Shown piece after piece: positions 24,824-38,628 of a stretch of DNA of 64,000 nt. The translations under genes were made by a program, and so were the position numbers. The stretch covers positions 1 to 64,000 of the forward strand of contig NZ_JWLL01000004.1 of NCBI RefSeq assembly GCF_000814025.1. Reading direction: 5' to 3'. The stretch comes from Tateyamaria sp. ANG-S1. GTDB taxonomy: Bacteria > Pseudomonadota > Alphaproteobacteria > Rhodobacterales > Rhodobacteraceae. Numbering within the stretch: position 1 is the stretch's first letter; every line of letters begins with the position of its first letter. Under the pieces are notes generated by a model. It ran no database searches. It was given only the letters and a program-made list of their open reading frames with translations, and had not been told where the DNA came from.

Positions 24824-25613
24824 GGCCTTTGCGCCCGCCAAGATCAACCTGACCCTGCATGTGACTGGCCAGCGAGATGGTGGCTATCATCTTCTTGATT
24901 CCCTTGTGGTTTTTGCCGACGTGGGCGACCGGATCGGGTTTGTTCTGGCCCCATCGATGCAGATTGAAGTGTCCGGGCCATTCTCGGTCGGGGTTCCTGA
25001 CGATGACCGAAATCTGATCTGGCGCGCCGCTGTGCTGGCGGGTGTCACGGGGCAGTTTTCCCTTGAAAAGAATTTGCCCCATGGGGCTGGGATTGGGGGC
25101 GGATCGTCAGATGCCGCGGCTGTGCTGCGGCTGATGGGGGCGGAGGCGCATGCGCTTGCGCTGGGTGCGGATGTGCCTGTGTGCCTGCTGGATCTACCGC
25201 AACGAATGCGGGGGATTGGCGAGGATGTGACGCCTGTGGGTGGTGTACCTGCGCTGGACATGGTGTTGGTCAACCCGGGCGTTCACGTACCGACGCCCGA
25301 TGTGTTCAAGCGTTTGCGGCAGAAAGAAAATTCCGGGATGGACAGCAAGCTTGGCTGGTCGGGTCGCGCCGGTTTCGTGGACTGGTTGAGGGCACAGCGT
25401 AACGATCTTCAAGCGCCCGCAGCATCTGGCAATCCGGCAATCTCTGCGGCGCTGACTGCCTTGAAAGGCGCAGAGGTGTCGCGCATGTCCGGTTCGGGAT
25501 CGACGTGTTTTGGTGTCTATCCGGATGCTGCTGCTGCGCGGGCTGCAGCAGACCAAATCGCCGCAAGCCAGCCGCGCTGGTGGGTTCGGGCGGTGCAAAC
25601 GGTCGGGGCCTAG
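24813..25613 (+). CDS. ispE: 4-diphosphocytidyl-2-C-methyl-D-erythritol kinase IspE
   Basis: 266 residues from ATG 24813, within the end of the TPR gene. The substrate motif FAPAKINLTLHV and the GHMP ATP loop LPHGAGIGGGSSDAAA are both present, and the end has SGSGSTCFGVY. It phosphorylates CDP-methylerythritol in the MEP isoprenoid pathway. The convergent neighbour encodes a polyprenyl synthase that uses the products of this pathway. The next base after its stop begins the structured repeat element. Confidence 0.95.
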   Translation: MTIEAFAPAKINLTLHVTGQRDGGYHLLDSLVVFADVGDRIGFVLAPSMQIEVSGPFSVGVPDDDRNLIWRAAVLAGVTGQFSLEKNLPHGAGIGGGSSDAAAVLRLMGAEAHALALGADVPVCLLDLPQRMRGIGEDVTPVGGVPALDMVLVNPGVHVPTPDVFKRLRQKENSGMDSKLGWSGRAGFVDWLRAQRNDLQAPAASGNPAISAALTALKGAEVSRMSGSGSTCFGVYPDAAAARAAADQIAASQPRWWVRAVQTVGA

Positions 25614-25782
25614 CCCGGCACGGAATCAAGGGCGTCAGCCCGCCGTGCCAGCGGCTGCCCGCCCCACCGGGCGGCCGCTACGCCAGCCAATGCGCGCCAC
25701 ACGAGCGTCATAGGCAAATGACAGGCATAAATCGCTTGGAACGAGTGTCGGTGCGGCCCCCCGCGGGCAGCCGCTGGCACGG
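25614..25782. repeat. Structured intergenic element, copy A (possible ncRNA or palindromic repeat)
   Basis: It fills the whole gap between the ispE stop and the octaprenyl synthase stop. Perfect 20-bp inverted arms lie at 25643-25662 and 25763-25782 (140 bp end to end). Inside are a 12-pair local hairpin (25650-25661 with 25668-25679, six-base loop) and the invariant 12-mer TAGGCAAATGAC at 25711-25722. GGCACGG at 25617-25623 repeats the outer part of the right arm and can also pair with CCGTGCC of the left arm. No T-run follows, so it is not a simple terminator. Copy B at 38465-38628 has the same length and architecture with different but complementary arms. Confidence 0.85.
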
Positions 25783-26781
25783 TTAGTTGATCCGTTCGAC
25801 CACGTAGTCGGCGAGGTCAATCAGCATGTCGCGCAGGTCATGTGCGGGCAGTGTGGCGAGAGACGACTTGGCCTTGTTCGCCCAGCCGATGGCGTCTGCC
25901 TTGGTTGCTTCAAGTGCGCCGTGTTTGTGCAGGAGCGACAGGGCGTGGTCGAGGTCCGCGTCCTTTTGCTGGCCCTTTTCGATGGTGCGGGACCAGAAGG
26001 CGCGCTCTTCGCTGTTGCTCATCGCGACGGCTTTGATCACTGGGAGCGTAAGTTTGCGTTCCCGGAAATCGTCGCCAACGTTTTTGCCGGTGGCCGAGGA
26101 TTGGCCCTGGTAGTCGAGCAGGTCGTCCACGATCTGGAACGCGATGCCGAGCGCGTCGCCGTAGTCGAAGAGCGCTTGCGTCGTCGCCGCATCCTTGCCT
26201 GCGATCACACCGCCGACCTCCATCGCCGCGGAGAACAGCGCCGCCGTCTTGCCGCGCACCACCTGTAGGTAGATGGCCTCATTGGTGGCCAGATCCTGGG
26301 CTGCGGTCATTTGCAGGACTTCACCTTCGGCAATCGTCGCAGCCGCGTCCGAAAGGATGCGCAGGACGTCCATATTGCCGGTCTCCGTCATCAACTGGAA
26401 CGAGCGGGCAAAGAGGTAGTCGCCCACCAGCACCGACGACTTGTTGTCCCAGAGCAGGTTGGCCGTGGGCCGCCCGCGCCGCTGGGCGCTTTCGTCGACC
26501 ACGTCGTCATGCAGCAGGGTGGCGGTGTGGATGAACTCGACCGTGGCGGCGAGATGTACGTGATAGGGGCCCGGATAGCCGCACATTTGCGCTGAGGCGA
26601 GGGTGAGCATGGGGCGCAACCGCTTGCCGCCTGCTTCCACGAGGTGCTGTGTCACTTCGGGGATACGGGGCGCGTGTTCTGAGGCCATGCGCTCGCGGAT
26701 CAGGGCGTTCACGCCCTCCAGATCCTCTGCCAGATAGGCAGCCAGACGGTCATGCGGTTTTGCGATTGTGGACGCGTCCAT
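25783..26781 (-). CDS. Polyprenyl (octaprenyl/decaprenyl) diphosphate synthase
   Basis: 332 residues from the ATG of MDASTIAKP, preceded by GGGGAAAG. Both Asp-rich motifs are visible: LLHDDVVDES (first, magnesium and allylic substrate) and QIVDDLLDYQ (second), plus GGKRLRPML near the N-terminus. It makes the long isoprenoid tail of ubiquinone; Rhodobacteraceae use a ten-unit tail, but chain length cannot be read directly. Its stop codon directly abuts repeat element A. Confidence 0.93.
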   Translation of the reverse strand: MDASTIAKPHDRLAAYLAEDLEGVNALIRERMASEHAPRIPEVTQHLVEAGGKRLRPMLTLASAQMCGYPGPYHVHLAATVEFIHTATLLHDDVVDESAQRRGRPTANLLWDNKSSVLVGDYLFARSFQLMTETGNMDVLRILSDAAATIAEGEVLQMTAAQDLATNEAIYLQVVRGKTAALFSAAMEVGGVIAGKDAATTQALFDYGDALGIAFQIVDDLLDYQGQSSATGKNVGDDFRERKLTLPVIKAVAMSNSEERAFWSRTIEKGQQKDADLDHALSLLHKHGALEATKADAIGWANKAKSSLATLPAHDLRDMLIDLADYVVERIN

Positions 26782-38464: not shown

Positions 38465-38628
38465 CGGACCGGAATCAAGCCGAAGGCGCCGGTCCAGCGG
38501 CGGACCGTCCCGGCGGGCTGCCGCTACATTGCCGTTTGTGCGCAACATTGGCGTCTTAGGCAAATGACCACAATAAACCGCACTGTTTCAGCGTTGGAGC
38601 GCCAGCCCACGGTCCGCCGCTGGACCGG
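38465..38628. repeat. Structured intergenic element, copy B (possible ncRNA or palindromic repeat)
   Basis: Perfect 20-bp arms at 38489-38508 and 38609-38628 span 140 bp, as in copy A. The 100-bp interior aligns to copy A without gaps at 65 of 100 positions. The 12-mer TAGGCAAATGAC is at 38557-38568. A local hairpin (38496-38507 with 38514-38525, one A-G mismatch) corresponds to the 12-pair hairpin of copy A. GGACCGG at 38466-38472 can pair with CCGGTCC of the left arm and repeats part of the right arm. The element lies between the nuclease gene and hisC. Confidence 0.85.

Follow-up and report, generated by a model that had tools for sequence, protein, structure and literature searches.

In a window of 64,000 nucleotides from Tateyamaria sp. 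ANG-S1, which is the whole stretch of DNA analysed here, two intergenic regions (copies A and B) carry a palindrome whose arms differ between the copies and remain complementary within each. What kind of element is this, and on what does its complementarity depend? An earlier note on this DNA offered three guesses, a Roseobacter-specific non-coding RNA, a mobile palindromic unit and a 3' regulatory element, and took the compensatory changes as a sign of selection on a folded RNA. The mobile palindromic unit is the best of the three. A and B are likely, with a probability of about 0.62, to be copies of a family of non-coding dispersed palindromic repeats, specific to Rhodobacteraceae in the broad sense, that spreads as DNA.

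The dimensions of the two copies were confirmed. Each has a body of 140 nt (A, 25643-25782; B, 38489-38628) bounded by perfect 20-bp arms, and the arms of B extend to 21 bp if 38488/38629 is counted. Five of the 20 arm positions differ between A and B (positions 4, 5, 14, 16 and 20), with complete complementarity in each copy, and the interiors of 100 nt each share 65 ungapped identities. A and B are the only perfect 20-bp inverted repeats with a gap of up to 160 in the whole window, and none was found in three letter shuffles. None of 200 dinucleotide shuffles folds as well as either copy (z = -4.72 and -4.73). The motif TAGGCAAATGAC, described earlier as invariant, is present in A and B and is conserved in one subfamily only; the constant letters of the element's middle are ATAAA in the consensus of copies. 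The element starts about 25 nt upstream of the left arm. The seven outer bases of the arm are present there a third time, about 20 nt before the left arm, in a copy that covaries with the others and had been missed (segment a in Table 1). Within A and within B, it has the same letters as the right arm at its 3' end.

Copy A occupies a gap between stop codons, as had been seen before; they belong to convergent genes (TAG ending at 25613 and TTA at 25783) and are 4 and 2 nt away from its two sides. Its neighbours are a gene with GHMP kinase domains on the plus strand and a polyprenyl synthetase gene on the minus strand. Copy B starts 4 nt after the stop codon of an Exo_endo_phos-domain gene and is followed by an aminotransferase gene.

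Table 1. Positions of the parts of copies A and B in the window.
Copy	Feature	Positions	Strand	Remark
A	Core (5' hairpin and 140-nt body)	25617..25782	+	R1 match G000:C27:25613-25786, 144.4 bits
A	Segment a, GGCACGG	25617..25623	+	Pairs with a' in hairpin I; same letters as a2
A	Inner mini-hairpin GGGC-GTCA-GCCC	25630..25641	+	c(GNNA)g loop; conserved AATCAA just before
A	Left arm (a' 25643-25649, and b')	25643..25662	+	
A	Hairpin II (b', loop, b)	25650..25679	+	Alternative to long-arm pairing
A	TAGGCAAATGAC	25711..25722	+	Subfamily motif
A	ATAAA	25727..25731	+	Most conserved middle-region letters (consensus)
A	Right arm (b2, and a2 25776-25782)	25763..25782	+	
B	Core	38466..38628	+	R1 match G000:C27:38462-38632, 168.9 bits
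B	Segment a, GGACCGG	38466..38472	+	
B	Inner mini-hairpin GCC-GAA-GGC	38479..38487	+	c(GNA)g triloop
B	Left arm (a' 38489-38495, and b')	38489..38508	+	
B	Hairpin II	38496..38525	+	
B	TAGGCAAATGAC	38557..38568	+	Subfamily motif
B	ATAAA	38573..38577	+	
B	Right arm (b2, and a2 38622-38628)	38609..38628	+	

A and B are not a private pair; this idea was rejected on finding 11 full copies in their own genome (G000, with the window on contig C27), accompanied by three opposite-strand echoes at the same places and one weak match. A DNA search of 61 genomes gave matches in 19. An alignment of 45 copies (A3) was used to construct the covariance model R1; L029, L030b and L050, which have no normal right arm, and L060, whose register is uncertain, had been left out. 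R1 matched 111 of 198 genomes from the same family (one per genus, G000 included), many of them with at least 14 matches, in a survey that scored the best 14 matches per genome. In a class-wide sample scored on the best eight matches, it matched 4 of 337 genomes, all four from Rhodobacteraceae in the broad sense. The filters of these surveys were stricter than for G000. The search of Rhodobacteraceae genomes with a covariance model, which the earlier note had set as a test, returned many further copies with complementarity largely maintained. The label "Roseobacter-specific" is right at the family level, as the class-wide matches fall in that family only. NCBI places Tateyamaria and Sulfitobacter in Roseobacteraceae, Rhodobacterales.

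The number of R1 matches with E up to 1e-6 was 30 in G007, 14 in G001, 12 in G005, 21 in G092 and 132 in G169, and a further count of four genomes at the same threshold gave 38 (G028), 21, 95 (G227) and 28 (G216). The counts for G000 and the high-copy genomes were taken from at most the best 150 matches per genome, and per-genome counts may include a few opposite-strand echoes of one copy. A hand count found about 107 places listed singly in G169. A pattern scan gave at least 120 stretches at at least 80 loci, under titles of Sulfitobacter, Roseovarius, Litoreibacter, Leisingera, Tateyamaria, Pseudooceanicola and others, genera that we take to be Rhodobacteraceae in the broad sense; the matches listed also include a few bins with no closer title than Alphaproteobacteria, Proteobacteria or Paracoccaceae. 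The idea that phages or plasmids carry the element was rejected. No phage match was obtained by blastn with copy B, the 5'-hairpin pattern had no exact match in viral contigs, and plasmid matches were partial and came from two Salipiger plasmids only.

The core of the element is about 170 nt and is composed, in this order, of a, AATCAA, a mini-hairpin, a', b', a loop, b, a middle region with ATAAA, b'', b2 and a2. The segment a' is complementary to a and a2, and both b' and b'' are complementary to b and b2. The left arm can pair locally, forming hairpin I (a:a') and hairpin II (b':b), or with the right arm (a':a2 and b':b2). RNAalifold and mutual information point to b'' as a further partner of b, beside b2. 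One strand can thus adopt either a set of small hairpins (I, II and a right-hand one) or a single long hairpin; the two forms are mutually exclusive. Such mutually exclusive pairings are the formal pattern of four-way branch migration.

Both folds show covariation. Among the 45 copies, 92.6% of the cells of the long-arm structure are paired, and 157 cells have changed on both sides against 50.6 in shuffles. In the local structure, 92.4% of the cells are paired and 101 have changed on both sides against 32.8; its pair-count and pair-type measures are within the shuffle range (34 and 113 of 500 shuffles reach them). Slid controls were 27-45% paired. The a:a' helix is paired in 95.2% of the A3 cells, and the a':a2 pairing is partly decayed (34 of 44 at columns 38:177). 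A larger set of 204 distinct copies was analysed with no structure supplied; it had been gathered with the long-arm model R1 or BLAST, most of the larger sample coming from a model that contains the long-arm structure, after removal of 6 of 210 sequences as duplicates or longer than 199 nt and with copies below 70 bits unused. The best complementary column pairs were a:a' (Watson-Crick in 98% at 8:31), b':b2 (96% at 41:154), a':a2 (87% at 31:164), b':b (98% at 36:63) and b:b'' (94% at 63:138). Column pairs with the same letter, such as 8:164, rank high because of these complementary pairings. As top-strand RNA, the long fold is predicted at -93.3 kcal/mol in A and -83.8 kcal/mol in B, against -84.4 and -64.4 kcal/mol for the best fold with pair spans of up to 80. 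Predicted energy favours the long form on both strands of A and B with RNA and DNA parameters.

If selection acts on a top-strand RNA, G.U pairs should be tolerated and A.C mismatches should not, and wobble counts test this prediction. In hairpin II, there are 74 G.U against 9 A.C on the top strand, leaving out the poorly paired 41:58 and 47:52, and 130 against 13 with 41:58 included. C>T changes are found at 5.4% of its G-C pairs and G>A changes at 0.5% of its C-G pairs (p = 3e-11, a value that, like the other Fisher, shuffle and permutation values here, ignores the kinship of copies). In the long arms, the counts of G.U and A.C are 31 and 61 for b':b2 and 16 and 32 for a':a2, with rates that are not different, and a separate hand count of the long arms gave 21 and 22. 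Hairpin I has 10 G.U and 34 A.C. The strand-specific wobble signature is confined to hairpin II.

Template switching has been proposed as a creator and maintainer of hairpins (available text of PMC8794818). Compensatory change alone is therefore insufficient to indicate selection on RNA, since template switching can give the same pattern. The earlier reading of the compensatory changes as selection on a folded RNA is backed by the wobble in hairpin II, but the long arms, with no excess of G.U over A.C, do not bear it out; as an account of the base-pair relation throughout, it goes too far. Much of the long-arm covariation may be owed to template switching or conversion. Of 188 parsed copies, 153 close the mini-hairpin in hairpin I with c(GNA)g, and eight more have c(GNNA)g (16 of the 204 copies were unparsed). 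GNA and GNNA loops on G-C stems are described as extraordinarily stable DNA mini-hairpins in the available text of PMC4686876. The triloop hints at folded single-stranded DNA, but the wobble and the triloop fit RNA as well. Reading the TNC loops of the bottom strand as UUCG-type tetraloops was rejected, as by eye that register breaks the stem.

The presence of the element at a site differs between species. At locus A, it is present in G000 and G001, and its flanks overlap or are 7-20 bp apart in G003, G004, G012 and G002. At locus B, compared in 19 genomes of which six were not judgeable, it is in the plus orientation in G000, G001, G005 and G004, in the opposite orientation in G009, G012 and G007, and decayed in G002; spaces of 66-144 bp without a recognised copy are present in G003, G008, G010, G015 and G017. 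When the flanks of the nine further copies of G000 were compared with eight relatives, continuous flank matches were found for locus C only, which is filled in six and empty in three of nine genomes. No clean target-site duplication was seen at loci A, B and C, where the compared empty sites belong to other, diverged species. In G005, a run of N occupies locus A (C4, ~363533-363975; L237, L255), perhaps an assembly gap at the hairpin. Locus C of the same genome (L035/L297) has orthologous flanks around an element whose subfamily clearly differs from that in G000, which looks like a replacement of the core by conversion or a second insertion at that place.

The spread within genomes is also visible. 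Of 161 copies, 100 have their best match within their own genome, where permutations gave a mean of 4 and at most 11, and G169 has copies that are 94-97% identical at different sites. Most copies in G169 (L341-L357, L421-L460) are inside a longer palindrome with outer inverted repeats of approximately TTGGCCTGGAGCGGACGTT.../...AACGTCCGCTCCAGGCC. In this one profiled genome, 37 of 45 copies are flanked by the left outer repeat, 40 by the right one and 35 by the two together; 2 of 47 copies had been left out of the profile. Given these longer units, the core may not be the mobile unit everywhere. The contigs C42, C17 and C14 of G169 begin at copies.

The copies avoid gaps that separate divergent genes and are preferentially found at 3' ends. 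Among the 129 copies whose neighbours on both sides were called, 52 are between convergent genes, 71 between tandem genes and 6 between divergent genes, whereas 318 copy-free gaps of 10-600 bp in the same named loci are 47 convergent, 194 tandem and 77 divergent. If the copy-holding gaps are included, the background is 67, 225 and 78; the final background excludes them. Genes were called by a codon-usage script, not taken from annotation. Nine of 138 copies were left out because a neighbour was missing or they were inside a predicted gene, 3 of 68 loci were too short, and copies below 70 bits were unused. In the count of 129, each orthologous copy that a sister species has at locus A, B or C counts singly, and no copy counts twice between the named and unnamed sets. 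Copies A and C have stop codons at most 12 nt away on both sides.

In tandem contexts, 36 copies are in sense and 35 in antisense orientation. The lack of orientation bias disfavours a sense-strand 3' regulatory RNA. A preference for 3' ends with none for orientation is expected of a tolerated palindromic insertion or of a symmetric end signal, not of a sense-strand RNA. No sigma-70-like sites were found near A or B in a scan for this promoter type. No intrinsic terminator, that is, a GC-rich stem followed by a T run, was found on the arms of A or B, and the identity of the element as an intrinsic terminator was rejected on this ground. The sole terminator-like hit within either copy is weak; it falls in the interior of B, on the minus strand (38593-38581; two hits in that stretch, 0.6 expected).

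Y1 transposases are known movers of REP-type hairpins. No match to the IS200/RAYT-type transposase (PF01797) was found in G000. PF01797 was found in 18 of 198 genomes of the family, and the element is present in 14 of the 18 with a PF01797 match and in 97 of the 180 without one; G097, G137 and G140, absent among the matches listed, were counted as element-free. Movement by RAYT/IS200 as a general rule was rejected, as PF01797 is matched in so few genomes and has no match in G000.

Movement as single-stranded DNA is expected to leave a bias for one replication strand. Such a bias was seen in 13 of 19 and 18 of 27 copies in two genomes (pooled p = 0.026, an unplanned comparison for which the replichores of each genome were drawn from 20 sampled stretches). 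Judged from local skew, it was 79 of 137 (p = 0.09), made up of 48 of 73 for loci of 8 kb and 31 of 64 for loci of 3 kb. The bias is weak and partly null, and it is not convincing. On contig C1 of G227, the 86 listed copies are oriented in blocks along the contig (for example, 11 plus and 4 minus, and 2 plus and 8 minus, in two tenths), as a replication effect might give; the sampled skew defines no replichores there. A palindrome, GTAGGGTGGGCATTCTGCCCACC, is present beside one copy (right flank of L072; query 2095-2130) and recurs in sister genomes, and G000 has no Y1_Tnp match. It resembles the GTAG-tagged REPs in the available text of PMC2817692.

No family in Rfam or in the literature searched was seen to account for these repeats. 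In Rfam 15, the window gave no match at the gathering threshold and the region of copy A none up to E = 5; six further loci with copies gave two sub-threshold hits, neither on a copy. An Rfam family identity was rejected, with no match on any copy tested. The family was not described in the literature searched, with preprints and most subscription journals outside its scope, nor in the available text of PMC3733652, PMC12306157, PMC3116915, PMC8794818, PMC4686876 and PMC2817692. The family is considered to be a non-autonomous palindromic interspersed repeat that is apparently undescribed. It was probably overlooked because its sequence varies while its folds are kept.

REPs are defined as GTAG- or CGTC-tagged palindromes of 20-40 bp (PMC3733652, text available in part), and their palindromy is preserved through complementary changes (PMC2817692, likewise in part). 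REPINs and BIMEs consist of two inverted palindromes around a spacer and are extragenic, multi-copy and non-coding, occur in tandem arrays and fold into hairpins or clovers (available parts of PMC3116915 and PMC2817692). The present family has in common with them an inverted doublet that can fold into one hairpin, seen in the b':b2 and b:b'' covariation, and it is likewise extragenic, multi-copy, in tandem arrays and non-coding. It differs in its longer (about 170 nt) and asymmetric core, in its extra 5' hairpin with AATCAA and the GNA triloop, in the conserved ATAAA in the middle, and in that most carriers have no PF01797 match. In the consensus of 204 copies, unlike in REPs, neither hairpin I nor hairpin II has a fixed GTAG or CGTC tag at its foot. 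With bacterial MITEs, the family shares short, non-coding, dispersed copies with inverted repeats at the ends; it differs in arm sequences that vary with complementarity kept. No terminal repeat common to the family was evident in the variable core arms, and recurrent outer repeats were seen in G169, the genome in which flanks were profiled.

RIME and Bru-RS of Rhizobiales are alphaproteobacterial intergenic palindromes of about 100 bp. They come from another order, and the present family is unmatched outside its own family in the class sample; the two are set apart here by description only. The ends of IS200/IS605 elements and their derivatives form strand-specific hairpins and use a guide mechanism. 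The present element resembles them in that its two ends share letters that are complementary, in a guide-like manner, to a segment inside it, but there is no Y1 match in G000. A guide role of a' is speculation by analogy.

Presence or absence at sites, reversed orientation, near-identical copies, enrichment between convergent genes and the lack of a sense bias argue for a mobile DNA repeat over a sense-strand 3' RNA. The element would spread as DNA, moved in trans by some enzyme, probably at a stage when the top strand is single-stranded and has hairpins I and II formed; an alternative resting fold would be the long hairpin. Build-up at 3' ends would arise because the element is tolerated there, and in places it may serve as an orientation-independent end signal. 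The arm complementarity is probably upheld by a folding requirement together with template switching or conversion between the arms. This explanation is weakened by several observations: the search for PF01797 found no mobilising enzyme, no clean target-site duplication was read, the replication-strand bias is weak, the wobble and triloop fit RNA as well as single-stranded DNA, hairpin I has more A.C than G.U, the core may not be the mobile unit everywhere, and most of the larger sample came through a model with the long-arm structure in it. A bolder version proposes a new kind of mobile DNA with a four-strand branch-migrating fold, in which a non-Y1 enzyme recognises the GNA-capped hairpins I and II of the single-stranded top strand, the long hairpin, with a' and b' captured by a2 and b2, is silent, and a, a' and a2 act as guide and target. 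It is unlikely. The REPIN/BIME organisation described above suggests mobilisation by a RAYT (Y1) transposase, but the rarity of PF01797, the lack of a match to it in G000, the distribution of the element over genomes with and without it and the untagged hairpin feet make this very unlikely, and as a general explanation it is largely refuted. It is also improbable that the outer inverted repeats of G169 mark the ends of a MITE, in the sense of an internally deleted DDE transposon, and that the core is only its interior. Those repeats accompany most copies in G169, but A and B, with stop codons so close to their cores, do not have these ends, and by eye the outer stretches vary and mix between copies.

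It is possible, if doubtful, that the arm covariation is mutational and the folds are not selected: template switching would correct imperfect palindromes and ectopic conversion would act on dispersed copies, so that the arms change in step while the fold has no function. Long-helix mismatches without significant strand preference, the other subfamily between orthologous flanks at locus C of G005, as conversion would give, and the proposed role of template switching in making and maintaining hairpins all agree with this. It does not predict strand-specific wobble, which is nevertheless present in hairpin II, and it leaves unexplained the conserved AATCAA, c(GNA)g triloop and ATAAA as well as the paired state of a:a' while some a':a2 pairs decay. 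Somewhat less probable is an orientation-independent 3'-end signal, in which the long hairpin ends transcription or protects mRNA 3' ends from either side and is kept by selection between convergent genes. The convergent enrichment and the stop codons close to both sides of copies A and C are as such a signal would have them, and the symmetry of the long hairpin would account for the orientation balance; the convergent bias follows equally, however, if insertions in promoter regions are harmful, orthologous sites in sister species manage without the element, and the one terminator-like hit is weak and off the arms. A structured RNA would have the core transcribed, in a putative 3'-UTR or small RNA, and selected as RNA; hairpins I and II would form during transcription and give way to the long hairpin after synthesis of the right arm. 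Covariation in both folds, the greater predicted stability of the long fold and the wobble tolerated on the top strand in hairpin II speak for it. The reading is nevertheless unlikely, given the even sense and antisense counts, a long helix and a hairpin I in which G.U does not exceed A.C, variable neighbours, presence that differs by species, no sigma-70-like site near A or B and no Rfam match.

The family is matched in more than half of the sampled genera, with more than 100 copies listed in one genome, and was not encountered in the searches of Rfam and the literature. Many carriers have no detected Y1 family, which offers a route to look for a new mover. Since one strand takes part in two competing helices, only one of them with a strand-specific signature, the copies are a natural data set for selected versus mutational covariation.

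Variation in the arrangement of the copies is observed as well. Tandem copies in the same orientation, with starts about 180-410 bp apart, were seen in G131, G180, G061, L173, L185, L125, L192 and L152. By eye, collapsed forms are found at L128, L153, L115, L171 and L029; in these, the right end comes almost immediately after hairpin II or after a portion of it. Extra hairpins in the loop of hairpin II were noticed by eye at ten loci (L116, L119, L132, L133, L138, L142, L154, L163, L166 and L180), and several of these variants have a CGAGAGGGGCCG-like stretch alongside.
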